Source: Sphingobacteriaceae bacterium (GTDB taxonomy: Bacteria > Bacteroidota > Bacteroidia > Sphingobacteriales > Sphingobacteriaceae). Taken from it: 64,000 bases of DNA. Below the pieces are notes generated by a model. That model saw only the letters and a list, made by a program, of their open reading frames with translations. It was not told the DNA's origin and did not search any database. The translations under genes were made by a program, and so were the position numbers. Within the stretch, counting starts at the first letter, position 1. Each line of letters opens with the position of its first letter. Below are positions 442-13,485 of this stretch, one piece after another. The DNA is taken from positions 248,001 through 312,000 of the forward strand of contig JAQSWM010000002.1 of the NCBI GenBank assembly GCA_029266635.1, in the 5' to 3' direction.

Positions 442-837
442 TTAGAGTGAATCGATTGCTTCCTTCAATTTCAGGCTCACTTCGCCAGCTATTGCTTCCA
501 GATTTTGATTTTGAACCGCAGACATCGTTTCCATAGGATTGACTGCAGATACTTCTACTTTACCGTCGGTGCGTTCCTGCACCAGTATATTGCAAGGTAG
601 CAATACGCCGATTCTATACTCTTGTTCAATTGCATGGTAGGCCATTTTCGGGTTGCAAGCACCGAGAATACGGTACTCACGAAAGTCGACGTTAAGTTTT
701 TCTCTGAATTTTTCCTTTAGATCTATTTCAGTAATGACTCCAAACCCTCTGTCTGCCAGTGCTTGTTTAACCTTTGTTAAAGCCGTTTCAAAAGTGTTGC
801 TTACTTCCCTGGTATGATAATAATTCATCTGGTCCAT
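442..837 (-). CDS. DUF302 family protein
   Basis: This is a 131-residue soluble protein without signal peptide. The pattern YYHTREVSNTFETALTKVKQALADRGFG followed by a beta-rich core and a conserved stretch around ACNPKMAYHAIEQEYRIGVLLPCN matches the DUF302 fold; the family is typically 120-150 residues. A cysteine in the ACNP segment and another in LLPCN are characteristic of the family. The function is unknown, but DUF302 genes recur next to sulfur oxidation and rhodanese genes. The gene precedes the serine acetyltransferase gene by 14 bases. The 134-base leader upstream holds an inverted repeat (CTGGCAA at about 896 and TTGCCAG at about 922) but no copy of the CRP-like palindrome found at the neighbouring operons. 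Confidence 0.8.
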   Translation of the reverse strand: MDQMNYYHTREVSNTFETALTKVKQALADRGFGVITEIDLKEKFREKLNVDFREYRILGACNPKMAYHAIEQEYRIGVLLPCNILVQERTDGKVEVSAVNPMETMSAVQNQNLEAIAGEVSLKLKEAIDSL

Positions 838-955
838 TGCTAAATGTTCACAATTAGAGATGGAACACTCCCTGGCGCATTAAGTTCTATGTTTCTGGCA
901 AGTGAGGCAATTGCAATAAGTTTGCCAGGGGTACTAAAAACTGGAGAGGCAAAAA

Positions 956-988
956 ATCAAAAAGGATCCGTTTAAAGATCCTTTTGAT
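956..988 (-). terminator. Rho-independent terminator of the DUF983 gene
   Basis: The arms AAAAGGATC (960-968) and GATCCTTTT (977-985) form a 9-bp stem with an 8-base loop. On the minus strand the stem is followed by TGATTTTTTG. The hairpin overlaps the stop codon of the DUF983 gene, so it should separate that gene from the DUF302-cysE unit. Confidence 0.65.
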
Positions 989-1337
989 ATTTAATTGGCG
1001 ACAAATAATGAAGTAATATCGTCCTTGAACACCTAAAATTGATTGCCATGAGTAAGATAACGGGTGAGATGGTAATTGCCATCAAGAGCCATAAATTACT
1101 TTCTCCAACAGTATAAAAAGCGGCTATGCCCGCTATCACTAATTCCGCTACCGTAAATGCGTAACTAACGTACATCGCGGCGTAGAAGAAGCCCGGTTCT
1201 ATCTCGTATTTTTGATTACAGTATGGGCATCTTTCATGCATAGTAGCGTACTTCCAACTAAATATTGAGCTCTTATAAATATCGCCCTGTTTACACCGTG
1301 GACATTTTTCATTAATCACAGCTGATATCTTAGTCAT
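972..1337 (-). CDS. DUF983 family membrane protein with zinc-ribbon-like cysteines
   Basis: This 121-residue protein begins with two CxxC pairs (CPRCKQGDIY near residue 12 and CPYC near residue 37), which look like a metal-binding knuckle. Two transmembrane helices follow (about residues 55-75 and 83-100). The arrangement is that of DUF983, whose function is unknown; members are small cytoplasmic-membrane proteins often near haem or copper assembly genes. The promoter upstream has a TACTTTTG -7 box (1411-1404, minus strand) placed 22 bases from the palindrome at 1434-1447. The gene therefore appears to be co-regulated with the divergent gene at 1495. Confidence 0.78.
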   Translation of the reverse strand: MTKISAVINEKCPRCKQGDIYKSSIFSWKYATMHERCPYCNQKYEIEPGFFYAAMYVSYAFTVAELVIAGIAAFYTVGESNLWLLMAITISPVILLMAINFRCSRTILLHYLSPIKYQKDL

Positions 1338-1403
1338 CTCGATCCCTTCCTTAAAGTTTTACACTAACACTGACCGGGGCTCGTAAAAGTTGCCCGACTA
1401 ATA

Positions 1404-1411
1404 CAAAAGTA
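1404..1411 (-). promoter_or_regulatory. -7 promoter box of the DUF983 gene
   Basis: The minus strand reads TACTTTTG, a full match to the Bacteroidota -7 consensus TAnnTTTG. Exactly 22 bases separate it from the edge of the palindrome at 1434-1447, the same spacing as at the other palindrome-linked promoters in this window. The predicted transcript start is near 1400. Confidence 0.7.
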
Positions 1412-1433
1412 AGGAGTTGATATAGCGTCTTTG

Positions 1434-1447
1434 GTGACAAAAGTTAC
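1434..1447. promoter_or_regulatory. CRP/FNR-like operator shared by two divergent promoters
   Basis: The site reads GTGACAAAAGTTAC, an inverted repeat with GTRAC arms and a 4-base AT core, equivalent to a CRP-type GTGA-N6-TYAC site. Its centre (1440.5) is 33 bases from the centre of both the plus-strand -7 box (1470-1477) and the minus-strand one (1404-1411). Relative to both predicted starts it would be near -41, the classical activator position. The likely protein is the Crp/Fnr regulator encoded at 12841-13485. Confidence 0.75.
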
Positions 1448-1469
1448 CGAACCGTCTCGTTACCGAAAT

Positions 1470-1477
1470 TAGCTTTG
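1470..1477 (+). promoter_or_regulatory. -7 promoter box of the DUF6132-like gene
   Basis: TAGCTTTG is a full TAnnTTTG match, 22 bases after the operator at 1434-1447. The predicted start near 1481 leaves a leader of only about 14 bases before the ATG at 1495. That supports ATG over the upstream TTG at 1486. Confidence 0.72.
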
Positions 1478-1494
1478 TAAGAAATTTGTTGACT

Positions 1495-1695
1495 ATGGAA
1501 TTTTTAAAAAGAAACACAGGGATAGTTTTAGGAATTGTACTTGGGATGTTAGCGGGATTTCTATATTGGAATTATGTGGGCTGTGTAAGCGGCACCTGCG
1601 CAATTACTTCCAGTCCGGTAAACAGCACTTTGTACGGAGCATTGATGGGTGGTTTGCTGGGTAATATGTTTAAAAAGGAAAGGAAGACTGAATGA
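1495..1695 (+). CDS. Small membrane protein, DUF6132-like
   Basis: This 66-residue protein starts at MEFLKRNTG; an in-frame TTG at 1486 is a less likely start. It has a first transmembrane helix (about residues 9-27), then a loop with two cysteines (VGCVSGTCAITSSP), then a glycine-rich second helix ending in a basic tail. The pattern YVGC-x-SGTC-x-ITSSP-x-NSTLYGA is typical of small DUF6132 proteins of Bacteroidota, which are found beside rhodanese and YeeE genes. Function is unknown; the CxxxxC pair between the helices could handle sulfur or thiol groups (inference). It is transcribed divergently from the DUF983 gene from a shared operator. Confidence 0.72.
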   Translation: MEFLKRNTGIVLGIVLGMLAGFLYWNYVGCVSGTCAITSSPVNSTLYGALMGGLLGNMFKKERKTE

Positions 1696-1705
1696 TATTT
1701 GGGCG

Positions 1706-2929
1706 CTATGACGTCCCTTTCTTTAGTCCAGGGATCATCCTAAGCTGCACAACCAAAGATGATAAGACAGTTAATCCACCGATTGTTGCTATAGCCGTGG
1801 AAAGGCCGAACGAATCTGCAAGGATTCCTGAAAGGATTGCACCAAAAGCATAGCCGGAATCTCTCCATAGTCTGAAAATACCGAGACTTTCAGCCCTTTG
1901 TTCGGGCCTCGTTTCATCTGCAATAGCGGCCAGAAAGGTTGGATATACCACCGCTGTTCCTATCCCTAAAATTACCGAGATAAGCACGTAAGAACTCAAC
2001 TGGAACGCAGGGATTAACAGCAACAGAGCTAAACCCTGGGCCAACATCCCCCAAAATAGCAGCGTCTTTTTATTTATTCTATCGGCAAGTTTACCGGTAA
2101 AAAGCTGCCCTAGTCCCCATACTGCAGGATAGATCGAAACAATCATCCCTATCTCCTTTAGTCCATATCCTTGTGTGCTTAACAGCAGAGGCAATAGTCC
2201 CCAGACCATTCCATCGTTTAGATTGTTCACCAAACCTGCCTGCGTGATTGATGATAAATTTGGATGACGAAGGCCTGTGTCAAGAAAAACTTTGTCAAGG
2301 GGTTTTATGGTTGATGTCTTTTTTTCTGTTAAGACGAAGCCCCTGGTGTCTTTGATCAAAAAAATACTGCCTGCAAGACCCAGGAAGGAGATAGCAATTC
2401 CGATATAAAAAGGATAGGGTCTGAGGCCGTATTCCGAAGCGATAAAACCGGTTAGAAGAGCTACTAGTGCGACGGCAAGATAACCAGCAAACTCGTTAAG
2501 TCCCATAGCCAGTCCCCGGTTCTTTTCTCCTACCAGGTCGATCTTCATTACTACTGTGGATGACCAGGTTAATCCCTGACTTATCCCCAGCAGCACATTA
2601 GAAGCAACTACCCAGGTCCAACTTTCAGCTGAAATGAGAATAATCGGCACGGGGATGGCAAAAAGCCATCCGTAGATCAGGAGCTTTCTCCGGCCAATAG
2701 TATTAGCAAGTGCTCCTGCAAAGTAATTTGCGATGGCCTTTGTAAAACCAAAAACAACAATGAAAGAAAGAAGTGCGGATTTAGCTACAATCCCAAATTC
2801 TTCCCGAGCCAACTCGGGAAGAATGGATCGTTCCAAACCGATCATTCCCCCAACAAAGGCATTTATAATTATAAGAAGCGTGAACTGCTTCCAGTTCTGC
2901 CGGAGCCCCAGTTGGATTTTACTGCTCAT
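1706..2929 (-). CDS. MFS transporter
   Basis: This is a 407-residue protein with twelve predicted hydrophobic helices. A signature MFS loop follows helix 2 (GALANTIGRRKLLIYG) and a second equivalent follows helix 8 (GKLADRINKKTLLFWG). The length is normal for the family. The substrate cannot be read from sequence. Its start codon overlaps the stop of the upstream periplasmic rhodanese gene by 4 bases, so it is the last gene of the sulfur operon that begins at 6988. Export of a sulfur compound or uptake of a related anion is plausible from context only. Confidence 0.82.
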   Translation of the reverse strand: MSSKIQLGLRQNWKQFTLLIIINAFVGGMIGLERSILPELAREEFGIVAKSALLSFIVVFGFTKAIANYFAGALANTIGRRKLLIYGWLFAIPVPIILISAESWTWVVASNVLLGISQGLTWSSTVVMKIDLVGEKNRGLAMGLNEFAGYLAVALVALLTGFIASEYGLRPYPFYIGIAISFLGLAGSIFLIKDTRGFVLTEKKTSTIKPLDKVFLDTGLRHPNLSSITQAGLVNNLNDGMVWGLLPLLLSTQGYGLKEIGMIVSIYPAVWGLGQLFTGKLADRINKKTLLFWGMLAQGLALLLLIPAFQLSSYVLISVILGIGTAVVYPTFLAAIADETRPEQRAESLGIFRLWRDSGYAFGAILSGILADSFGLSTAIATIGGLTVLSSLVVQLRMIPGLKKGTS

Positions 2930-3378
2930 TCTACAGGATATCCCTTATTGATCCAGTCGACTTTAATATTGGTTGGTAGATTTAGAAGCTTCCCATTCTT
3001 GAATCCGGCAGCTTTCAACGCGGTAAAGGCCGGACGGATGTTCGGACAACGTTCAAACGGACAACAGCCGCAGTAAACAACTACTGTTGACGTTTTTGGA
3101 ATGCTTGATAAAGCCTTCTTAAACCGGTCCAGATTTTCCTTTTCGCTGGCACCACCCATATTTCTTGCCCCTTTGATATTCTCGACCACGCCTATATTGA
3201 AGATAAGCGGTTTTGAAGTTTTCGAATTTTTGATCATCGCTGCCAAGGATGCCGGAGCCATCAAATCGGTTCTTGTCCAGGGATCCTTCGCCAATTGCGG
3301 CTTAGCAGGAAATTGCGCCCAGGACGTTAACGTTACAAATAGGGTGAGAACGAATGTAATTAATGTTGTCTTCTGCAT
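2926..3378 (-). CDS. Periplasmic rhodanese-like protein with a cysteine-rich active loop
   Basis: This is a 150-residue protein with a clear signal peptide (MQKTTLITFVLTLFVTLTSWAQ). The body has a rhodanese-like order: a PLIFNIG strand, a GARNMGGA segment, and then the loop VVVYCGCCPFERCPN at about residues 98-112 where the rhodanese catalytic cysteine belongs. Four cysteines (C-x-C-C-x4-C) in that loop are unusual, since normal rhodaneses have a single CRxGxR loop. It probably carries or transfers sulfane sulfur outside the cytoplasmic membrane. It overlaps the MFS gene by 4 bases and abuts the YeeE-type gene at 3378, so translation is probably coupled. Confidence 0.7.
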   Translation of the reverse strand: MQKTTLITFVLTLFVTLTSWAQFPAKPQLAKDPWTRTDLMAPASLAAMIKNSKTSKPLIFNIGVVENIKGARNMGGASEKENLDRFKKALSSIPKTSTVVVYCGCCPFERCPNIRPAFTALKAAGFKNGKLLNLPTNIKVDWINKGYPVE

Positions 3379-3800
3379 TAGTGAGGTAGTTTGTCTTTAA
3401 TTAACCCATATAAATAAGTACCGGAAAGGGCTCCGATCACGACGATGATCATAGCAAGGTAGCCATAACCAATATTAACGAACATGGGGCCTGGACAAGC
3501 GCCAGTCAGCGCCCAGCCCAATCCGAAGATCGAACCTCCGATAATATACCGTGGCCAGCTTTTATCCTTATCCTGAAAGGTAATCGGATTGCCCTGAGTG
3601 TCTTTCATCCTGAATTTTTTGATAAGTGCTACTGCTATTACACCAAGTATAACGGCGGTTCCAATGATCCCATACATGTGGAACGACTGAAAGCGGAACA
3701 TCTCCTGGATGCGATACCATGAAATTGCTTCAGACTTGGCCATGATCACGCCAAAAACCAGTCCTGTTAGTATATATTTTAATCCTTTCATCTCTTTCAT
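3378..3800 (-). CDS. YeeE/YedE family protein (DUF6691-type half)
   Basis: Starting at ATG 3800, which overlaps the upstream stop as TAATG, this gives 140 residues. An upstream in-frame start at 3923 would lie inside the preceding gene and add a non-hydrophobic tail, so I reject it. The protein has four hydrophobic segments and the conserved GWALTGACPGP motif around residues 93-103, whose cysteine is the counterpart of the thiosulfate-passing cysteine in YeeE. With the next gene it forms the usual two-gene YeeE pair that together equals one full-length transporter. The likely role is uptake or movement of thiosulfate or a similar sulfur species across the cytoplasmic membrane. Confidence 0.8.
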   Translation of the reverse strand: MKEMKGLKYILTGLVFGVIMAKSEAISWYRIQEMFRFQSFHMYGIIGTAVILGVIAVALIKKFRMKDTQGNPITFQDKDKSWPRYIIGGSIFGLGWALTGACPGPMFVNIGYGYLAMIIVVIGALSGTYLYGLIKDKLPH

Positions 3801-4357
3801 TAGAATATTAATGGTAATAGTAAATGGGTCATTACCAGACCACCTATAAAAAATCCGATCACTGCTACCAGAGAAGGGAGCTGCATATTGGAAAGGCCGC
3901 TGATGGCATGTCCGGAGGTACATCCTCCTGCGTATCGGGCTCCAAATCCTACCAGCACACCTCCAATAAGCAGTACTAATATTCCTTTCGAGGATGTAAG
4001 AACTTCTGTCCCAAAAAGCTGCGATGGGTTTAGGCCGCCGTCAAAGGCTATTCCCAATCCCTTCAGATCTTCGATCGTTGCTGCTGATAGTTTAAGCGGC
4101 TCATCGTTTTGCAGTAAGGTTGAGGCAACTACACCTCCCAACACTGATCCAAACAGGAAGAGTAAGTTCCATTTTTGGGTTCTCCAGTTGAAGTCGAAGA
4201 ACTTTACTTTTTTTCCGGCACCGGCGATGGTACAAATGGTGCGAAGGTTTGCCGATACACCAAATGATTTGCCAAAGAATAAGAGCAATACCATGATGAA
4301 AGCTATTGCCGCACCCGAAATATACCAGGGCCAGGGCTGTCTAAGTAGTTCAAGCAT
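3800..4357 (-). CDS. YeeE/YedE family thiosulfate-transporter half
   Basis: This 185-residue membrane protein has the YeeE motif GARYAGGCTSGHAISGL near residue 140, whose cysteine is essential for thiosulfate passage in characterised YeeE. Hydrophobic segments are at about 13-32, 64-81, 123-142 and 160-180. It overlaps the universal stress gene upstream by 8 bases and the partner half downstream by one base (TAATG), so the pair is translationally coupled. The split into GGCTSGH and GACPGP halves is normal in Bacteroidota and proteobacterial sulfur operons. Confidence 0.85.
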   Translation of the reverse strand: MLELLRQPWPWYISGAAIAFIMVLLLFFGKSFGVSANLRTICTIAGAGKKVKFFDFNWRTQKWNLLFLFGSVLGGVVASTLLQNDEPLKLSAATIEDLKGLGIAFDGGLNPSQLFGTEVLTSSKGILVLLIGGVLVGFGARYAGGCTSGHAISGLSNMQLPSLVAVIGFFIGGLVMTHLLLPLIF

Positions 4358-5183
4358 GTTGTTTTTTTAATTGAAATGTTAACAAAGGTTTGATGCAATG
4401 ATTCACCAAACGTTCAGCAATGCTGCCAAACAATAGATGATTTCTTCCTTTACGGGCGTTAGTTCTGATACACACCAGATCCATCTCGGCTTCGCGGTTA
4501 AAGTTTCTGATACCATCGGCAACTTTTCTGTCGCGGTACAGATGTGTTTCATACTTTTCTAGCTGATGTTCCTCCGCAAAAAACTTCATCTGAGCTTCAA
4601 TCTCGTCGGCATATTTTTCCTCACCTTCAGTTAGGATTTGCAGCAGATGGATGGTGCTATCAAAAGCCTTTGCCAGTTTTTTAATGGTTTCGATCTGCAC
4701 ACCCTTTCCAAAAAGCTCAAAGTCGGCCACTAAAAGGATGTTTTTCAAATCAAGCATCGGCGTTCCTGGGCGGATTGTCAGAACAGGAACCTGTAAGTAA
4801 CGAGCTACGTGCTGTGCTTCGGAGCCGGAAATCATCTCTATAAATCCATCAGACCCCTTAGTGCCCATTAATACCAGGTCAGCTCCCAGTTCAGCAGCGG
4901 CTTGATTAATTTGGTCTGTCAGCTTTCCTACACGAACATGCGCTTCGAATTTTGCTCCACGGGATTTCAACGCTTCAAACTTATTTAACGTTTCCAACTT
5001 CTTGTTCTCCAGCTCAGCATCAGAGCGACCTTCCAGATAGTCGGAGTCAGAATCGTTCACCTGCTGCACATGAAGCATATGAATTTGGATGGGGATTTTT
5101 CGCTCAAGCACTTCGGCCATTTCAATCGCCAGGTAACTAACTTCAGAAAAATCGGTAGGAATTAGAATATTTAAAGTTTCCAT
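4350..5183 (-). CDS. Universal stress protein, tandem UspA domains
   Basis: This 277-residue protein has two UspA-like domains. The first (about 1-145) carries the ATP-binding-type end GADLVLMGTKGSDG-x-SGSEAQHVARYLQVPVLTIRP. The second (about 148-273) is more divergent and ends FGSIAERLVNHCIKPLLTFQL. The G-x2-G-x9-G pattern is recognisable in the first domain. No signal peptide is present, so it is cytoplasmic. It lies inside the sulfur operon, 29 bases after the rhodanese gene and overlapping the YeeE gene. A stress or regulatory role in sulfur handling is inferred only from position. Confidence 0.85.
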   Translation of the reverse strand: METLNILIPTDFSEVSYLAIEMAEVLERKIPIQIHMLHVQQVNDSDSDYLEGRSDAELENKKLETLNKFEALKSRGAKFEAHVRVGKLTDQINQAAAELGADLVLMGTKGSDGFIEMISGSEAQHVARYLQVPVLTIRPGTPMLDLKNILLVADFELFGKGVQIETIKKLAKAFDSTIHLLQILTEGEEKYADEIEAQMKFFAEEHQLEKYETHLYRDRKVADGIRNFNREAEMDLVCIRTNARKGRNHLLFGSIAERLVNHCIKPLLTFQLKKQHA

Positions 5184-5212
5184 TTTTATTTATTGATTTA
5201 AGGAGGTGGCTT

Positions 5213-5533
5213 TTATCGTGGCCACGCTCCAATTCCCCCAACTAAATTGTAAGATTTTAATCCTAGCTTCTCAAAAAGCGATGCAGCGCTTCCACTCCTG
5301 TTACCACTGCGGCAATACAAAAAGTAAGTTTTGTCCTTATCGAGCTTTTGAACCTGACTTTGAAAATCAGGAGCCATCAAATCGAGGTTCTTTGCTCCGG
5401 GAATACTACCGGAGGAGAACTCTCCCGGAGTACGTACGTCAATCAGCTCTGCTTTATCTGTTGTTTCAAACTTCTGTTTGAAATTCTTTCCGTCTAAATC
5501 GTTTTCTTTCTTTGAAAAAATGCTGTTAAACAT
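5213..5533 (-). CDS. Single-domain rhodanese
   Basis: This is a 106-residue cytoplasmic protein consisting of one rhodanese domain: LIDVRTPGEFSSGSIPGAKN, then the catalytic loop FLYCRSGNRSGSAA (Cys at about residue 75) and the end GGIGAWPR. The six-residue CRSGNRS loop fits a sulfurtransferase acting on thiosulfate or persulfide. It follows the persulfide dioxygenase fusion gene by 36 bases. It could deliver sulfane sulfur from incoming thiosulfate to glutathione-like thiols or to the dioxygenase. Confidence 0.9.
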   Translation of the reverse strand: MFNSIFSKKENDLDGKNFKQKFETTDKAELIDVRTPGEFSSGSIPGAKNLDLMAPDFQSQVQKLDKDKTYFLYCRSGNRSGSAASLFEKLGLKSYNLVGGIGAWPR

Positions 5534-5569
5534 GATTGTGCTTTTTTAATGATTAATAGATTTTTATGC

Positions 5570-6988
5570 TTAGGCCATTGTACTTGGACATACATAAGGA
5601 CTAACTTCAAATTTTCCTGATTCTTTCAGCGCCTTAAATCCGCCTTTGATGTCTATAAGATTATCAAAGCCACGTGCGCGAAGTATCGAGTTGAAGATCA
5701 TGGAGCGATATCCACCTGCACAATGCACATAGTAAGGCTTATTTTTATCCACTTGTGCCATTGCGTCATTGATGTAATCAAGAGCCGCGTTTTCTGAACC
5801 GATCAGATGCTCTGAATAGTGTTCTGTGTTTTTGCGCACATCCAGAATATTTACCTCTGCACCTTTTGCTGCTCGTTCTGCCAGTTCTTCAGGAGTAATT
5901 GACTCGATCTGATCTACTTCTTTCCCTGCGGCTCTCCAGGCTTCAATGCCGCCTTTCAGATATCCTATAGCATTGTCATAACCAACCCGGGCCAAACGGG
6001 TTATAACTTCTTCTTCCCGGCCTTCATCCGTGATCACTAATAGTTCTTGCTGAATATCCGGAATTAAAGTTCCAACCCATGGAGCGAAACTTCCATCAAT
6101 TCCTATATTGATTGAGTTTGGTACAAAACCTTTCGCGAATGTCTGTGGATCGCGGGTATCTAAAAGCAGGGCTCCGGTTTCATTCGCTGCAGCTTCAAAA
6201 GCTGCAGGATCTAAAGCCTGTGTTCCTTTTTTCAATACATCTTCAAAGCTTTCATACCCTTCCTTATTCAATTTCACATTTAAAGGAAAGTATGCAGGCG
6301 GAGGAGTAAGACCATGTGTCACCTCTTTGATAAATTCCTCTCTGGTCATATCGGCCCTTAAAGCATAATTAGTTTTCTTCTGGTTGCCTAAAGTATCGGT
6401 GGTTTCTTTGCTCATGTTTTTGCCACAAGCGGAACCTGCACCATGAGCCGGATAAACGGTGATATCATCATTCAAAGGCATGATTTTAGTCCTTAGGGAA
6501 TCGAAAAGAGTTCCTGCAAGTTGTTCTTGAGTCATATCAGCGGCTTTCTGAGCCAGATCAGGACGCCCCACGTCGCCGATAAACAGCGTATCTCCGGAGA
6601 ATAATGCTGTCTCATTTCCCTGCTCGTCCATTAACAAATAGGAAGTTGATTCCATGGTGTGACCTGGCGTATGGAGTACTTTAATAGTAAGATCCCCAAT
6701 TTTAAATTCTTCGTTATCTTTTGCGATGTAAGCGTCAAAGCTTGGATTGGCGTTTGGCCCGTAGATAATAGGAGCGCCTGTTTGTTTTGAAAGATCCACG
6801 TGTCCTGAAACGAAATCCGCATGAAAATGCGTTTCAAAAACATACTTGATCGTTGCCTCGTTTGCCTTAGCTTTTTCTATGTATGGGTTGACTTCGCGTA
6901 ATGGATCTATAATCGCAGCTTCGTTTCCTGATTGGATGTAATAAGCACCCTGTGCTAAACATCCGGTATAAATCTGTTCGATGATCAT
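5570..6988 (-). CDS. Persulfide dioxygenase-rhodanese fusion (MBL fold, CstB/Blh-like)
   Basis: Start ATG 6988 gives 472 residues. An open frame continues upstream to 7132, but it reads through the operator at 7056-7069 and lacks family similarity. Residues 1-230 are a metallo-beta-lactamase fold of the ETHE1 type: THFHADFVSGH at 53-63 supplies the iron ligands, with HTPGHT near 110 and FSGDTLFIGDVGRPDL near 130. Two rhodanese domains follow. The first (about 280-365) has ITDEGRE where the catalytic cysteine should be and so looks inactive. The second (about 375-465) has the full YVHCAGGYRS loop (Cys near 422). The enzyme should oxidise a persulfide to sulfite and exchange sulfane sulfur with thiosulfate. 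It heads the sulfur operon. Confidence 0.88.
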   Translation of the reverse strand: MIIEQIYTGCLAQGAYYIQSGNEAAIIDPLREVNPYIEKAKANEATIKYVFETHFHADFVSGHVDLSKQTGAPIIYGPNANPSFDAYIAKDNEEFKIGDLTIKVLHTPGHTMESTSYLLMDEQGNETALFSGDTLFIGDVGRPDLAQKAADMTQEQLAGTLFDSLRTKIMPLNDDITVYPAHGAGSACGKNMSKETTDTLGNQKKTNYALRADMTREEFIKEVTHGLTPPPAYFPLNVKLNKEGYESFEDVLKKGTQALDPAAFEAAANETGALLLDTRDPQTFAKGFVPNSINIGIDGSFAPWVGTLIPDIQQELLVITDEGREEEVITRLARVGYDNAIGYLKGGIEAWRAAGKEVDQIESITPEELAERAAKGAEVNILDVRKNTEHYSEHLIGSENAALDYINDAMAQVDKNKPYYVHCAGGYRSMIFNSILRARGFDNLIDIKGGFKALKESGKFEVSPYVCPSTMA

Positions 6989-7025
6989 ATCTTTATTATT
7001 CTTTTTTAATTCTGTTTTGATAGTA

Positions 7026-7069
7026 CAAATTTCGGTATCTCTAAATGCGGGGACGGTGACTTTTGTTAC
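7026..7069 (-). promoter_or_regulatory. Operator and -7 box of the persulfide dioxygenase operon
   Basis: On the minus strand the operator GTAACAAAAGTCAC (7069-7056) is followed after exactly 22 bases by GAAATTTG (7033-7026), a -7 box that keeps A at position 2 and the TTTG end. The predicted start is near 7022, 34 bases before the ATG at 6988. The spacing is identical to that at the other operators in the window. Confidence 0.7.
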
Positions 7070-7077
7070 AGAAGGAC

Positions 7078-7872
7078 CTAACCACTTATTTCTTTGAAAA
7101 TGATATAGATACCCATTGCCAGCACGAACCAACCAAAGCCTTTTTTAAGCTTTTCTCCAGGGATTTTCTTACTCAACAGCCCGCCAACAAATATACCGGC
7201 AACGGCAATTCCTGTAATGGTAATAAGGAACGTCCAGTTGATAGTAAAGTGTCCCAGATCTCCAGCAAAGCCGAACAATGAATTCATCGCTATAATCGCT
7301 AACGATGTTCCTACCGCCTTTTTCATGGGCAGCTTAATCAGGAACACCAGGGCTGGAATCAGTAGGAAACCACCACCGGCGCCAAGCAGACCTGTAACCA
7401 ATCCAATGCTAATGCCATAGCCGAGAAGTTTGAAGAATTTAATACAGTCGGAACATTCCTTTTCGGGACCGGCACCGCTTTTATCCCTGATCATGCTAAT
7501 GGATGCGATCAGCATGAGTATTCCGAACAGAACCATCGTAAGAAAGGATTCCGTAATCGTGAAGCCGCTGATTGTGATTATTTCTTTCGGAATGATGGGC
7601 ACCAAGAACTTCCGTGTTGCAAATACAGTAATAACCGAAGCTGCACCAAAAAACAAGGCCGCTTTTATACTTACCAACCCTTTACGGAAATTATTAAACG
7701 ATCCGATTAGGCTGGTTGAACCAACAATGAATAGTGAGTAGGAAGTGGCCAGTAAGGGAGATACGCCGAAAAGGTAAACCATCACCGGAACGGTAAGGAT
7801 TGAGCCGCCGCCACCAATTAAGCCAAGAGAAATTCCGATTAAAGCTGATGCAATATAGCCTAGTAGTTCCAT
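7078..7872 (-). CDS. TauE/SafE family sulfite exporter
   Basis: This is a 264-residue protein with eight predicted transmembrane helices in two repeats. Each repeat has the family's glycine-rich signature (GLIGGGGSILTVPVMVYLFG near residue 18 and GLLGAGGGFLLIPALVFL near 160). The family exports sulfite or sulfoacetate-type anions across the cytoplasmic membrane. Because the next operon begins with a persulfide dioxygenase whose product is sulfite, sulfite export is the natural role. It has its own operator-promoter at 7891-7934, and a further operator lies between it and the dioxygenase gene. Confidence 0.85.
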   Translation of the reverse strand: MELLGYIASALIGISLGLIGGGGSILTVPVMVYLFGVSPLLATSYSLFIVGSTSLIGSFNNFRKGLVSIKAALFFGAASVITVFATRKFLVPIIPKEIITISGFTITESFLTMVLFGILMLIASISMIRDKSGAGPEKECSDCIKFFKLLGYGISIGLVTGLLGAGGGFLLIPALVFLIKLPMKKAVGTSLAIIAMNSLFGFAGDLGHFTINWTFLITITGIAVAGIFVGGLLSKKIPGEKLKKGFGWFVLAMGIYIIFKEISG

Positions 7873-7890
7873 TATTTTGTTTTGATACTA

Positions 7891-7934
7891 CAAAGGTCAT
7901 GCTTAGAATTTCGGGAGTTTGTGACAAAAGTCAC
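7891..7934 (-). promoter_or_regulatory. Operator and -7 box of the TauE/SafE gene
   Basis: The perfect palindrome GTGACTTTTGTCAC (minus strand, 7934-7921) is followed after 22 bases by GACCTTTG (7898-7891). The predicted start near 7887 lies 15 bases before the ATG at 7872. The palindrome and its AAAC flank are identical to those at 12428-12441. Confidence 0.75.
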
Positions 7935-7948
7935 GCGGTGTAGCTTAG

Positions 7949-8404
7949 CTATAGGAAGGGGAAGAATCGGTAGCTGCGTTTTTGATAATCCTGATATTCA
8001 GGAAACTTCTCCATCAGCAGTTTCTCTTCGTAGCTTGACTTAAAATAGAACAGCAACAGCAAAAGAGAGGTGATAAAGAGCTTGAACAAACTTAGCTCCC
8101 ACATAGCGTATCCAAAGAAAAACAGAAGCAGTCCAGTGTATACAGGATGCCGTATCTTTTTGTACAAACCGGTTTGAATAAGAGTTCCCTGAGATACAGG
8201 TCTAGGAAATGGACTTAAATTTCCTCTTAGCTGCAGTAGGGCAAGTACTGCAATCAATAAGCCCATAACCGCTATAACCAGGAACGCTACTTTAACCAAG
8301 GAAGGAAATTGCCATCCCTGCCGGGATGGCAACTGAAAATATAAAATGAAAAGCAGAAGCTGAAGACCGACGAACAGTATATCTTTTGCCTTTAATCGTT
8401 TCAT
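7949..8404 (-). CDS. Isoprenylcysteine methyltransferase-like membrane protein
   Basis: This 151-residue membrane protein has four to five helices. The conserved C-terminal pattern GLYKKIRHPVYTGLLLFFFGYA, followed by YEEKLLMEKFPEYQDYQKR, belongs to the ICMT/PEMT-like methyltransferase superfamily. In that superfamily the RHP and E-x2-L-x4-P-x-Y residues bind S-adenosylmethionine. The substrate is unknown; some relatives methylate thiols or membrane lipids. It overlaps the DsbD gene by 4 bases (ATGA) and closes the thiol-redox operon, so a thiol substrate is a reasonable guess. Confidence 0.78.
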   Translation of the reverse strand: MKRLKAKDILFVGLQLLLFILYFQLPSRQGWQFPSLVKVAFLVIAVMGLLIAVLALLQLRGNLSPFPRPVSQGTLIQTGLYKKIRHPVYTGLLLFFFGYAMWELSLFKLFITSLLLLLFYFKSSYEEKLLMEKFPEYQDYQKRSYRFFPFL

Positions 8405-10095
8405 TGAACTAAAGTAAGCTTCTTTTCTTCGAATCGGACTTTACCCTCATCCAAAAAATCAGCAAATGACTCAGGATCATAATCTGCACCACGAGGCTCA
8501 TTTAACATTTCGCCATCATGGTCAAGCAGGACATAGTATGGTTGAGAATTGGCATTGAAACGACTCGCCTGGAAATCACTCCACTTATTGCCAATCGTCC
8601 TGATCTTTTTACCGCTGAACGATGAAACGCTTTGCTCGTTAGGCGGTAGTTCAGTCTTATCGTCCACATACAACTGGATCAACACATAGTCGTTTTGGAG
8701 CCTGCGCAAAACTTCCTTCTCGGGCCAGACTGTTGACTCCATTTTTCTACAATTTACGCAGGCATGTCCGGTGAAATCGATTAGCACAGGCTTGTTGACT
8801 TCTTTTGCATAGGCTAAACCTTCTTCATAGTCGAAAAAAGCATTCAGGTTCAGGGGGGCATGAAAAATATCGGAGTACTTCTTCTTCGACTTTTGATCTA
8901 AAGGTATACCTACAGAAGAAATTGAATTAGTATACAAATCGAAATCCTGCGTAGTCTGAGGCGGAAGGAATGCAGAAATTGCTTTCAAAGGTGCGCCCCA
9001 CAAGCCGGGGATCATATAGATGGTAAAAGAGAGAGTCATAATAGCAAAACCAAGGCGAGGGATGCTGATGACAGAATTATCTGAGTCGTGAGAAAACCTC
9101 AGCTTGCCCAGAAGGTAAAGTCCAAGTAAACCAAAGATCACAATCCAAAGAGCAAGAAATACCTCCCGATCGAACCAGTCCCAATGATAAGCCAGATCTA
9201 CATTGGACAGGAATTTCAGCGCTAAGGCGAGTTCTAGAAAGCCCAGTACGACTTTCACCATATTCAGCCATCCGCCCGAGCGGGGCAGAGACTTCATCCA
9301 GGATGGGAACATGGAAAACATCACGAAGGGAATAGCCAATGCCACTGCAAATCCGAACATCCCTGTTGCTGGGGCTAACAAGGTTCCGGTAGAAGCAGCT
9401 TCGACAAGCAGCGTCCCAATGATAGGTCCGGTACAGGAAAAAGATACCAGGGCCAGCGTGGCAGCCATGAAAAAGATCCCCATCCATCCGCTTTTTTCGC
9501 TCTTCGCATCCATTTTATTTACCCAGGATGCTGGAAGGGTAATTTCAAACGCTCCAAGGAAAGAAGCAGCAAACACCAGTAATAGCAGGAAGAATGCGAA
9601 GTTGAAAATACCGTTTGTGGATAGGGCATTGAGGGCATCAGCACCAAAAAGCACGGTGACCAATAAACCCAATACTACGTAAATCACGACAATGGAAATA
9701 CCGTATAACAGCGATCGTCCAATGGCTCTTCCTTTGTTTTCGGCTGCCTTTGTAAAGTAGCTGATTGTTAGAGGCAGCATAGGGAATATACAGGGCATTA
9801 AAAAAGCCGCGAAACCACCAAGTAAACCAGCCAGAAAGATCGACCAGAGAGAACCGGACGTTTCTTTTGCTTTCTGTGTTTTTGGTGTCGGTTCGCTAAC
9901 GCTCTCTTTCGGCTCCCCGCTTTCCGCTGGGATTTCGATGAAATCTAAGTCTTCCGCTTGAATGCTGTCCCCGTTCTGCTCAATGGGAGTGAATTGGAGA
10001 TTTTCAATGTCAGTGCTTCCAACAGTATCTTGCGGAAAGACCGGTGTGACACTGGTAAGAAGTGTAAGTATAAGGTGATAGATCAGCCTGATCAT
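8401..10095 (-). CDS. dsbD: DsbD-type thiol:disulfide reductase (transmembrane and C-terminal domains)
   Basis: This 564-residue protein has a signal peptide, then a low-complexity acidic linker (about 22-80) in place of the usual N-terminal DsbD alpha domain. An eight-helix membrane domain (about 85-370) follows with its two redox cysteines in MPCIFPMLPLTISYF and SFSCTGPIIGT. A C-terminal thioredoxin-like domain carries GHACVNCRKME (CVNC) near residue 448. It should pass electrons from cytoplasmic thioredoxin to periplasmic thiol proteins such as the TlpA encoded in the same operon. The missing alpha domain is encoded separately by the next upstream gene, so DsbD is split here. Confidence 0.88.
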   Translation of the reverse strand: MIRLIYHLILTLLTSVTPVFPQDTVGSTDIENLQFTPIEQNGDSIQAEDLDFIEIPAESGEPKESVSEPTPKTQKAKETSGSLWSIFLAGLLGGFAAFLMPCIFPMLPLTISYFTKAAENKGRAIGRSLLYGISIVVIYVVLGLLVTVLFGADALNALSTNGIFNFAFFLLLLVFAASFLGAFEITLPASWVNKMDAKSEKSGWMGIFFMAATLALVSFSCTGPIIGTLLVEAASTGTLLAPATGMFGFAVALAIPFVMFSMFPSWMKSLPRSGGWLNMVKVVLGFLELALALKFLSNVDLAYHWDWFDREVFLALWIVIFGLLGLYLLGKLRFSHDSDNSVISIPRLGFAIMTLSFTIYMIPGLWGAPLKAISAFLPPQTTQDFDLYTNSISSVGIPLDQKSKKKYSDIFHAPLNLNAFFDYEEGLAYAKEVNKPVLIDFTGHACVNCRKMESTVWPEKEVLRRLQNDYVLIQLYVDDKTELPPNEQSVSSFSGKKIRTIGNKWSDFQASRFNANSQPYYVLLDHDGEMLNEPRGADYDPESFADFLDEGKVRFEEKKLTLVQ

Positions 10096-10122
10096 CCTAG
10101 AATCGTTTAATGATTGAAATAC

Positions 10123-10569
10123 TTATTTAATTGTAAGAATAAAATCGACCTCTTCAGGAGGAAGGCATCTGGAGTCATCACATGCCATATATTCAATTTT
10201 TCCCTTAACTGTTGCAGGTAGCCTGGAGAGGTTTACTTTTTGCTGAAAGATAACTGTATTTGAAAAGTAGCTGACTTTCATGTTGAAAGCCTTTTCAAAC
10301 GTCGTAATTGGCTTTGGCTCCAGGGTTGCCCCCAACTTCTTATAAGAAGAAGAGGGAGTAAAGCTGAAGCTTGTTTTTACGGGACCGCCTTCAGGTACCT
10401 TCTGCGAGTAAATATGCCAGCCCTTATCGATCGTTGCTTTCAAGTAGATAATGGCCTCGTTCTTTCCGGTTTTCTTGGTAGCGTACGACCACTTTACCGG
10501 CTTTAAAATCTGAGAATATGAAGTAGCACTGAAAAACAGTGCTACTATCATGAAAAGGATGTTTTTCAT
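10123..10569 (-). CDS. Separate DsbD N-terminal (alpha) domain protein
   Basis: This 148-residue protein has a signal peptide (cleaved after ATSYSQ). The remainder is the immunoglobulin-like DsbD alpha domain: an LKPVKWSYATKK start, GWHIYSQKVPEGGP, and the two redox cysteines in YMACDDSRCLPPEEVDF near residue 130. In ordinary DsbD this domain is the periplasmic electron outlet. It lies 27 bases upstream of the gene for the rest of DsbD, so the two products probably work together. Confidence 0.85.
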   Translation of the reverse strand: MKNILFMIVALFFSATSYSQILKPVKWSYATKKTGKNEAIIYLKATIDKGWHIYSQKVPEGGPVKTSFSFTPSSSYKKLGATLEPKPITTFEKAFNMKVSYFSNTVIFQQKVNLSRLPATVKGKIEYMACDDSRCLPPEEVDFILTIK

Positions 10570-10606
10570 CTTAATTTTATTTGACTACCCAATATCTGGG
10601 AGTTGT

Positions 10607-11227
10607 TTATTTACTTGTTAGTTCCTTAAAAAACTTCACAATTTCCGGGTTCATGTAATCTGCACCACCTTCATGCCTGCCAACTACTTTACCTTCTTTG
10701 TCAATTATTACAGTCGTTGGAATGGATCCTGAAAGGAACTCCGGTGGAACCGAACTAACCGCGGTATATACAGGCAGGTCGTACTTATTATTTACCATGA
10801 ACTTGCTCGACTTTTTGTAGTTGTCGTCTACATCTACCATGAGGAATAAGATGTCTTTTTCGTCGAATTGCTTTTTTAGCTCATTAATAGATGGCATCTC
10901 CTGAACACATGGAGGACACCAGGTAGCCCAGAAGTTGATGAAGAGCACCTTTCCCTTTTGTTTAGAAATATCAACGGTTTTACCGCTCCCGTCTTTAAAT
11001 ACCACTGAGGGGGCCGGAGCCAGTTCTGCACTTCCAGTAGATTCATTGTTTACCTCCTGAGCAGAAACGGATGCTTCCTGTTCTGAGTTGTTTCCAGATT
11101 CACTGGTGTTATTATTTGCGCCACCAAATAAAAGCGCTTTCGCATCCGGGCTTATTAATAAAATTGCCGTAATAAGTATGACAATAGCAGAAAAGATGCC
11201 TGCCTTAGAAAAGATCTTAGATTTCAT
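10607..11227 (-). CDS. TlpA-family periplasmic thioredoxin-like protein
   Basis: ATG 11227 gives 206 residues starting MKSKIFSKAG. A longer frame to 11341 adds a hydrophilic stretch ahead of the membrane anchor and is not credible. An N-terminal anchor (about 8-27) is followed by a Ser/Glu/Asn-rich linker and then a TlpA/ResA thioredoxin domain with FINFWATWCPPCVQEMP (CPPC near residue 102) and the cis-proline loop SIPTTVIID. It should act as a membrane-tethered disulfide reductase outside the cytoplasmic membrane, fed by the DsbD pair encoded just downstream. Confidence 0.87.
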   Translation of the reverse strand: MKSKIFSKAGIFSAIVILITAILLISPDAKALLFGGANNNTSESGNNSEQEASVSAQEVNNESTGSAELAPAPSVVFKDGSGKTVDISKQKGKVLFINFWATWCPPCVQEMPSINELKKQFDEKDILFLMVDVDDNYKKSSKFMVNNKYDLPVYTAVSSVPPEFLSGSIPTTVIIDKEGKVVGRHEGGADYMNPEIVKFFKELTSK

Positions 11228-11357
11228 TTTTTGGTGTTTAATAGTTGGCTCCGAAGAGTCGTAAGAAATAAATTGAATAGTTAGTGCTGAACCAGACATA
11301 GTGCAACCTGTGAAAGCCTGTAAGCAGGTTTTCAGATACAAGAAAGTTTGGGCGAAA

Positions 11358-11759
11358 TCAAATCAGAAAGGTCCTGTTCCGAAGATATAGGGGAACAGAA
11401 TACAGGGGTAAGGGTTCACGTTCCCTGGAAAATAAAATCAGGGAATCAGATTTAAACATGGCCGAGATAGCCCAAAAAGCAGTAATTAATACAGCTGTAA
11501 ACAAGGGCGCATTAGCTTCTGTCGGACGCTCAGGCAAAGACATTTTCTTACTGAAGCTACTTTCTCCACCAACACATATAACCGAAGCGAGGTTTTTCCC
11601 TTGCCCACCACCGGTCTGCTCCGTTTGGTTGGTACCATTCAAGTAAACGTGAATGGCCTTTTTCAAGGGGCAAGAGCCCAGCACAAGGAAACTCATTATC
11701 AGTAAGAATACTGACAAGAAGCCTATTTTTCTAGAAAATCCTTTGAGCTGTCTAACCAT
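11358..11759 (-). CDS. Hypothetical lipoprotein-like membrane protein
   Basis: I do not recognise this 133-residue protein. It has an N-terminal hydrophobic segment ending VLGSC, which could be a lipobox, and then KKAIHVYLNGTNQTEQTGGGQG. A second cysteine lies in ASVICVGGESS and a second hydrophobic helix at about residues 86-103. The C-terminal tail is short and polar. It sits inside the thiol-redox operon between thioredoxin and TlpA genes, which hints at a role in envelope thiol chemistry, but nothing in the sequence proves it. The frame is real as far as operon order and spacing can show. Confidence 0.55.
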   Translation of the reverse strand: MVRQLKGFSRKIGFLSVFLLIMSFLVLGSCPLKKAIHVYLNGTNQTEQTGGGQGKNLASVICVGGESSFSKKMSLPERPTEANAPLFTAVLITAFWAISAMFKSDSLILFSREREPLPLYSVPLYLRNRTFLI

Positions 11760-11812
11760 TTTTTCCTTAAATGTATTCTTTCTCTTGTGTAGTGTAACGA
11801 TTCAAAAGTGAA

Positions 11813-12109
11813 TTAAGTATATTTTTCAATGACCTGCTTTAGCTGCGAAGCCTGCATGACGCCAGACTGCCGCCACTTCGTTTCTCCGTTTTTGAATAAG
11901 ATTAAAGTAGGAACTCCCTGAATTTGATAAGATTGAGCTACCTCTGGGTTTTTATCCACATCAACCTTCAAAATCGTTGCATCTTCACCAACCAATCCTT
12001 TTAATTGCTCTAAAATAGGTGCCATCATCTTACACGGGCCGCACCATTCTGCAGAGAAGTCAACCAATACAGGTTTATCAGAATTTATGATCTCAAAAAA
12101 TGTTGCCAT
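11813..12109 (-). CDS. trxA: Thioredoxin
   Basis: This is a 98-residue cytoplasmic thioredoxin: [20 protein letters not shown] with the WCGPC active site near residues 22-26, [28 protein letters not shown] with the cis-proline, and a standard C-terminal helix. The length is slightly short for the family but complete. It lies 12 bases after the small membrane protein gene. It probably reduces the split DsbD of the same operon, giving a dedicated electron path from the cytoplasm to the periplasm. Confidence 0.93.
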
Positions 12110-12121
12110 ATCTCTTTCTGT

Positions 12122-12376
12122 TTATCTACCCTTAATTTCTTCAAATTCAACATCCACTGTTTTATCGATGTTTTGCTTCCTCGGAGTGGTATTACAGGCG
12201 CTCGTTCCACAACAAGCTGCATTTGCCAGGGCCTGGAAAACAAACAAGCCTGCCAGAAGTCCTAACAGTCCGTTTTGTAATTCAAAAGCCTGGTAAGCAA
12301 CAAGTAACCCCATTGCCAACCTCAACCATCTCATAAAATTCCAACCGGTGAATAATGTTTTTCTAAGTGTTTCCAT
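12122..12376 (-). CDS. Small YgaP-type membrane protein with clustered cysteines
   Basis: I place the start at ATG 12376 (METLRKTLF), giving 84 residues. The in-frame TTG at 12400 lies inside the -7 box and upstream of the predicted transcript start. The protein resembles the membrane-hairpin part of YgaP-type rhodaneses (DUF2892-like): two short helices around LRLAMGLLVAYQAF and LLGLLAGLFVFQALANAACCGTSAC. The tail contains three cysteines (CCGTSAC). There is no rhodanese domain. It is the first gene of the thiol-redox operon, directly under the operator at 12428-12441. Confidence 0.72.
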   Translation of the reverse strand: METLRKTLFTGWNFMRWLRLAMGLLVAYQAFELQNGLLGLLAGLFVFQALANAACCGTSACNTTPRKQNIDKTVDVEFEEIKGR

Positions 12377-12397
12377 TCTTCTCTCGTTTTCCTTAGA

Positions 12398-12441
12398 CAA
12401 AAGTCAGGAGAATAGATACGAATGTTTGTGACAAAAGTCAC
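12398..12441 (-). promoter_or_regulatory. Operator and -7 box of the thiol-redox operon
   Basis: The perfect palindrome GTGACTTTTGTCAC (minus strand, 12441-12428) is followed after 22 bases by GACTTTTG (12405-12398). The predicted start is near 12394, about 18 bases before the ATG at 12376. The operon then runs through thioredoxin, TlpA and DsbD to 7949. No matching box exists on the plus side. Confidence 0.75.
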
Positions 12442-12516
12442 CAGGAAGGTCTGGAAGTGGACTTGGGAATTAATTGTTAAACTTCAAATCCGGAGGCCGT
12501 TTACTGATGCAAATTC

Positions 12517-12798
12517 ATGGATCATAAACAAATATTTGAAAGCATAGTTAAAGGAAGTATGGACAGGATGAAACAGCCTTTTAGCATTACCGTAGATCTG
12601 GATGGAAACTGCGAACAAAGAACCTTATTTCTGACTCATAATACAGAAACTTTTGATTTCGAATTAGACGGGCAAGCAATTTCGATAATCAACAACGGCG
12701 ATAATTCGTGGAGCATTGTTGCCGGAACGATCGATCAGGAGACGGTTAACCTCATCGGTACAGAGGTCGAAAAGCATTATAAAAACCTCCACCTCTAG
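12517..12798 (+). CDS. Hypothetical protein, 93 residues
   Basis: I do not recognise this small soluble protein. It begins MDHKQIFESIVKGSMDRM and continues as an alternating beta-rich domain (SITVDLDGNCEQRTLFLTH), ending in a helix. One cysteine is present. It stands alone on the plus strand, divergent from the thiol-redox operon and convergent with the Crp/Fnr gene. A plus-strand -7 box at the usual distance from the operator at 12428-12441 is absent, so it is probably not controlled from that site. Composition and codon use look like real coding sequence. Confidence 0.6.
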   Translation: MDHKQIFESIVKGSMDRMKQPFSITVDLDGNCEQRTLFLTHNTETFDFELDGQAISIINNGDNSWSIVAGTIDQETVNLIGTEVEKHYKNLHL

Positions 12799-12840
12799 TT
12801 TCTATAAATTTTATAGCCCCTTGTCCGAAATTTAAGAATC

Positions 12841-13485
12841 TTACTTTTTCCACTCTATATAATTCCTGTGCAAGGCTAGGTAACCTCTTTGTTCCATCTT
12901 CTTTAATAACCTTGATATCACCTCACGTGATGAACTCAGGTCGTTGGCTATCTCCTGATGAGTGATATTTAACTGCTTTGTTTCCAGCTTCTCCGACTGG
13001 TTTTTTAGATAAAAATCCAGGCGTTCATCCATGCTTTTAAAAGCGATATTATCTACCATCGTCAGGAGCTCTTCATATCGGTTACGATAGGTTTCCAGTA
13101 CGAAATAGTACCATGTCTTATAATCCTGCATCAGCTCGTCCATCAACTGTATCGGGATAAGTAAGGCGACAGTGTATTCAACAGCTTTAGCCATAACTTC
13201 ACTTGTTTCCTGTTTAGCAGCACAAATCATAGACAGAGCACATGCTCCGCCCGGTTCTATGTAATACAGGAAAAACTCGTTGCCCTCTTCGCCCTGCCGA
13301 TAAAGCTTCACCCGGCCTTCCACAATTAGCATGGTAGAGCGAAAGTATTGTCCGGGAGACATCATTACTTCCTCCGCCTCAAACTTTTTGATAGAGCAAT
13401 TTGCGATCAGCTTTTCCTTCAACCCAGGCTCGAATTGTGGAAAGAACTGATTGATGTATTGGGATACTGTTAATTCATTGGCCAT
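12841..13485 (-). CDS. Crp/Fnr family transcriptional regulator
   Basis: ATG 13485 gives 214 residues beginning MANELTVSQYINQF; a longer frame to 13551 adds a poorly conserved tail. Residues about 10-125 are a cyclic-nucleotide-binding-like beta barrel, with the FRSTMLIVEGRVKLYRQG segment. It lacks both the cAMP-binding residues of Crp and the four-cysteine cluster of Fnr. Cysteines 82 and 88 (GGACALSMICAAK) form a C-x5-C pair. The C-terminal winged helix has the recognition helix HQEIANDLSSSREVISRLLKKMEQRG, whose SSSREV part resembles the CRP DNA-reading helix. That fits the GTGA-N6-TCAC-like operators of the neighbouring sulfur operons, so I infer that it controls them. Confidence 0.88.
   Translation of the reverse strand: MANELTVSQYINQFFPQFEPGLKEKLIANCSIKKFEAEEVMMSPGQYFRSTMLIVEGRVKLYRQGEEGNEFFLYYIEPGGACALSMICAAKQETSEVMAKAVEYTVALLIPIQLMDELMQDYKTWYYFVLETYRNRYEELLTMVDNIAFKSMDERLDFYLKNQSEKLETKQLNITHQEIANDLSSSREVISRLLKKMEQRGYLALHRNYIEWKK

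Follow-up and report, generated by a model that had tools for sequence, protein, structure and literature searches.

Divergent promoters activated by CRP from a single target have been described in Escherichia coli (El-Robh and Busby 2002, Biochem J 368:835, cited in PMC5499769), and divergent activation was also suggested for Cmr, a redox-responsive CRP/FNR protein of Mycobacterium tuberculosis (PMC5499769). In Acinetobacter, sulfur-handling genes (persulfide dioxygenase, TauE, YeeE/YedE) are governed under sulfide stress by two persulfide-responsive regulators, the sigma-54 activator FisR and the repressor BigR, which senses through a pair of thiols (PMC7315123). The locus reported here lies in a 64,000-nt window, the whole stretch of Sphingobacteriaceae DNA that was analysed, and shares traits with each of these systems. 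As in E. coli, it would rely on one dimeric Crp/Fnr-family protein, one palindrome, and promoters on both sides, and the mechanism is therefore of a kind already known, since divergent activation from one CRP target has been shown there. It differs from the E. coli system in having Bacteroidota -7-box promoters, a regulator devoid of cAMP-binding residues, and a natural, exactly symmetric arrangement. It departs from Cmr in lineage, promoters and regulon alike. With FisR and BigR it shares the kind of genes controlled, whereas its proposed regulator has a Crp/Fnr fold.

The reading that we favour, and consider likely, is that the palindrome at positions 1434-1447 is one class II operator, bound by the regulator encoded at 12841-13485 and shared by the promoters of a DUF983 and a DUF6132 gene, within a local reactive-sulfur regulon. 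Sequence and comparison show the operator, the boxes, their spacing, the membership in the regulon, the conservation, and the co-variation of the E/V helix residue with the half-site; from these we infer the binding of the regulator, the activation, the use of both promoters, and the signal. The Crp/Fnr regulon for sulfur detoxification to which the site would belong is conserved and apparently undescribed, and two-sided members such as this one are rare in it. In the limited collection of literature consulted, we found no description of this Bacteroidota regulon, its motif or its fixed 22-nt rule, no described regulator for such Bacteroidota clusters, and nothing usable on a Crp-type persulfide regulator of Bacteroidota or on the function of DUF983 and DUF6132.

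One palindrome between two predicted promoters

The first-pass annotation had proposed that a palindrome and two flanking boxes allow one activator, bound near -41, to drive both neighbouring genes, and the sequences and coordinates it gave are exact. The palindromic operator GTGACAAAAGTTAC (1434-1447, no strand), recognized by direct reading and by the regulon-wide motif, is separated by 22 nt from the -7 box TAGCTTTG on the plus strand (1470-1477) and by the same 22 nt from the -7 box TACTTTTG on the minus strand (1411-1404). Both boxes are, as had been claimed, full TAnnTTTG matches equally distant from the palindrome (33.0 nt centre to centre on each side). Because the TAnnTTTG box occupies -12 to -5 in Flavobacterium psychrophilum (PMC9723704), transcription is predicted to start at 1482 (+) and 1399 (-), with the centre of the palindrome at -41.5 of each promoter, as for a class II activator site that overlaps the -33/-35 region; both predicted starts are A, the base that 53 of the 77 promoters aligned have at +1. 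The plus-strand promoter would serve a small DUF6132 membrane protein gene (1495-1695, +; PF19628, E 3e-7) with a predicted leader of 13 nt, and the minus-strand promoter a DUF983 membrane protein gene (972-1337, -; PF06170, E 6e-8). Both matches exceed the Pfam cut-off, and the names first given to the two genes hold.

Taken singly, the elements are not above chance within the window, where TAnnTTTG occurs 48 times (58 expected) and the loosely matched palindrome 33 times (29 expected), but the palindrome-N22-box combination is. It lies beyond chance because a box of the form NAnnTTTG is expected at one fixed offset with a probability of only about 0.0016 and because units of palindrome, N22 and box are found repeatedly throughout the regulon. 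Chance co-occurrence of palindrome and box was ruled out by reversed-motif controls.

A fixed 22-nt spacing in related loci

The spacing was determined in loci chosen only by their homology to the 12841-13485 regulator, namely 20 family loci and, separately, 80 named loci, nearly all from Bacteroidota. In the 20 family loci, together with the window and the locus on its left (L009), 27 of 60 oriented sites have a box at spacing 22 and 3 have one at 23, other spacings being represented by scattered single cases (the 1434 site is counted twice). The 80 named loci gave the same picture: of 224 oriented sites, 88 have a box exactly 22 nt away and 6 have one at 23 nt, most other spacings occurring about once, and two control motifs showed no spacing peak in these loci. 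A scan of 121 family genomes for the palindrome-N22-box unit returned 49 matches, against 3 for the reversed control. Sites accompany the regulator in 64 of the 80 loci, and about 15% of the palindromes in the vicinity of the regulator lack a box.

Within the 77 aligned promoters, no peak was seen for a TTTG element near -33, and the -7 box is degenerate at its first base, with T in only 19; taken together, these two features fit activator-dependent promoters. As judged from the loci compared, the 22-nt rule points to a conserved class II activator architecture. The two promoters at 1434, which carry full -7 boxes, may be stronger than other promoters of the regulon.

Other operators in the genome and content of the regulon

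Pattern searches of the whole 3.6 Mb genome found GTGACNNNNGTYAC in eight places, five of them with a box at 22-23 nt. These five box-bearing palindromes, the only ones detected genome-wide, all fall inside 15 kb (C16:245819-260441). L009:9819 lies outside the window, 2.2 kb to its left, and the others are inside it, at 1434, 7056, 7921, and 12428. This 15 kb lies around the regulator gene, which speaks for assigning the 1434 operator to the 12841-13485 regulator. The three further operators in the window bear no strand, and each has its box 22 nt away on the minus strand. The operator at 7056-7069 (GTGACTTTTGTTAC; box GAAATTTG, 7033-7026) has as predicted target an MBL-fold/rhodanese gene, persulfide dioxygenase-like by its Lactamase_B and Rhodanese domains (5570-6988, -), with a YedE/YeeE-type sulfur transport gene pair (3378-4357, -; PF04143) farther downstream. 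The operator sequence GTGACAAAAGTCAC occurs both at 7921-7934 (box GACCTTTG, 7898-7891), predicted to act on a TauE/SafE-like exporter gene named from its sequence character, with no curated family match (7078-7872, -), and at 12428-12441 (box GACTTTTG, 12405-12398), predicted to act on a small membrane protein gene that is DUF2892-like by eye and has no Pfam match (12122-12376, -). The operator outside the window (L009:9819-9832) is itself two-sided, with its left box at 22 nt and its right box at 23 nt; a persulfide dioxygenase-like gene flanks it on the left and a CoA-disulfide reductase-rhodanese gene on the right.

Across relatives, TauE/SafE genes were the most frequent downstream of box-bearing sites (58), followed by MBL-rhodanese (52; 42 + 10), YeeE (14), thioredoxin (7), CoA-disulfide reductase-rhodanese (4), DUF983 (3), DUF6132 (3), and a few others, eight downstream genes having no match to the reference set; these counts take in overlapping loci from the same genomes. 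In other genomes, DUF983 is part of YeeE-YedE-DUF983 operons and DUF6132 lies close to YeeE/YedE, which indicates that the two families recur within this set of genes.

Occurrence and conservation of the two-sided form

Boxes on both sides of the palindrome were present in only 4 of 144 distinct sites, namely 1434, L009:9819 (at 22 and 23 nt), and the counterparts of both in Pelobium manganitolerans. When 401 family genomes were searched, the two-sided pattern was found at five sites in three genomes (those four and one GTAAC-type site in G198), and its reversed control had no match. Apart from the GTAAC-type case, the form comes from two closely related genomes. At DUF983/DUF6132 pairs it was found in Pelobium and, among about 427 family genomes searched, in no other relative.

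The 74-nt unit of the window differs from that of Pelobium at 4 positions, all in the spacers, a number too small to demonstrate that both boxes are under selection. The right spacer of L009:9819 has diverged, but an NAnnTTTG box is still found at 23 nt. One relative (G033, locus L048) is devoid of the DUF983 gene together with its box, and on the DUF6132 side retains a near-site, GTGATGAAAGTTAC, followed after N22 by TAGCTTTG. The joint disappearance of DUF983 and its own box is what one would predict were each gene served by a box of its own. The proposal of one activator near -41 for both promoters is therefore supported by the 22-nt rule, by the retention of the two-sided form in Pelobium, and by this one-sided loss.

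The proteins of the cluster (window 442-13485) are mostly 92-99% identical to those of P. manganitolerans (L098), the two genomes being placed in different genera; the likeness may reflect close kinship or transfer. The site in G198 (L200; G198:C21:124502-124575) is an independent two-sided GTAACNNNNGTTAC site located between unrelated genes, which include those for a DoxX-like membrane protein, a DsrE-like protein (by eye), and a haem-binding lipoprotein.

The candidate regulator

The proposed activator is encoded by the gene that closes the cluster (12841-13485, -) and matches PF00027, PF13545, and PF00325. In an AlphaFold2 model (mean pLDDT 84; pTM 0.61, with uncertain inter-domain placement), it displays the hallmarks of the Crp/Fnr superfamily, that is, an N-terminal cNMP-binding-like beta-roll, a long dimer helix, and a C-terminal Crp-type helix-turn-helix; a Foldseek search with this model matched the CRP, NtcA, and FNR folds. 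The label "CRP-like" given to the palindrome is hence appropriate as to the family, but not in the sense of a cAMP-CRP site, the regulator being devoid of cAMP-binding residues: E72, R82, and S83 of E. coli CRP align to a gap, Glu, and Thr, respectively, and cAMP-CRP was rejected. An FNR-type 4Fe-4S oxygen sensor was likewise rejected, as the regulator has no N-terminal cysteine cluster and its only invariant cysteines are Cys82 and Cys88.

Recognition helices of the SREV(I/V)SR type pair with GTGAC half-sites, and those of the SRVV(I/V)SR type with GTAAC. In the regulator-chosen set, AA-type sites were found in 4/4 cases at V-type loci and in 0/26 at E-type loci (Fisher p 4e-5; one site stands twice among the 26, and the kinship of the V-type sequences is uncorrected). 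In a further sample, V-type sites were AA or AG, never GG. This co-variation between the E/V helix residue and the GTGAC/GTAAC half-site ties the regulator to the motif. The same E-to-V step separates CRP from NtcA, whose residue is visible in the alignment; the binding consensus is TGTGA for CRP and GTA-N8-TAC for NtcA.

Proposed mechanism and alternative explanations

In the mechanism that we propose, the regulator dimer would be activated at Cys82/Cys88, probably by sulfane sulfur or by a thiol-reactive signal related to it, and would then occupy 1434-1447, at -41.5 of two back-to-back Bacteroidota -7-box promoters. Either face of the symmetric dimer could recruit RNA polymerase in a class II manner, leftward for DUF983 and rightward for DUF6132, and the regulon partners of the two genes (MBL-rhodanese, TauE/SafE, YeeE/YedE, CoA-disulfide reductase-rhodanese, and thioredoxins) would handle reactive sulfur. 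Two polymerases may not fit together, in which case the promoters could compete. If this reading is right, the sulfur-detoxification clusters of many Bacteroidota acquire a named regulator together with its binding motif and promoter layout, and the uncharacterised membrane families DUF983 and DUF6132 gain a testable context. The 1434 site is also a small, naturally occurring setting in which to ask whether a single symmetric activator can work on two Bacteroidota-type promoters.

An unlikely, but the most serious, alternative is that the operator works on one promoter only (probably that of DUF6132 or DUF983 alone), the opposite box being a weak or unused -7-like sequence. One-sidedness is indeed the common state, as 96 of 112 palindromes in the 80 named loci have a box on one side and none on both, and some 0.2 extra fixed-offset boxes are expected by chance among about 140 sites. 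Against this stand two full TAnnTTTG boxes at exactly 22 nt with correctly oriented genes, neither of which is altered in Pelobium, the loss in G033 of DUF983 along with its own box only, and a second two-sided site in the same cluster.

Shared operation of both promoters by the 12841-13485 regulator is also preferred over two explanations that question the identity or the mode of action of the protein. That a different Crp/Fnr paralogue or cAMP-CRP binds the sites, with the neighbouring regulator gene being incidental, appears very improbable: the genome encodes five proteins with a cNMP-binding domain and the GTGA half-site resembles that of E. coli CRP, but the sites cluster around the 12841-13485 gene only, keep company with it in most of the named loci, and co-vary with the recognition helix of its family. 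Least probable, in our estimation, is repression of both promoters until a sulfur signal frees them. Although BigR and CstR, known regulators of similar operons, are repressors (PMC7315123), repressor sites have no need of a fixed spacing, and the strict -41.5 position, the lack of a -33 TTTG, and the degeneracy of the -7 box at its first position fit activator dependence.

A possible signal

All orthologues more than 60% identical to the regulator carry CALS(M/L/I)IC as an invariant motif, which contains Cys82 and Cys88. This cysteine pair and the sulfur-related regulon are only suggestive of a regulator that senses sulfane sulfur or persulfide through Cys82/Cys88. A more specific proposal, which we put forward tentatively and which may well prove wrong, is that 12841-13485 encodes an undescribed Bacteroidota persulfide/sulfane-sulfur sensor of Crp/Fnr fold, in which a two-cysteine switch replaces the nucleotide pocket, and that a single dimer of it activates DUF983 and DUF6132, both acting in a sulfide-detoxification response. 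The closest solved structure, that of a Crp/Fnr regulator from Eubacterium rectale (PDB 3dv8), carries C-x5-C at the corresponding position, but is about 26% identical to the regulator, and its function is uncharacterised in the record. Being found in a Firmicutes protein, the cysteine pair could mark a wider subfamily. In one genome (G080; loci L029 and L058), the orthologous regulator gene contains an in-frame TAA, while the adjoining box-bearing operator is still there.
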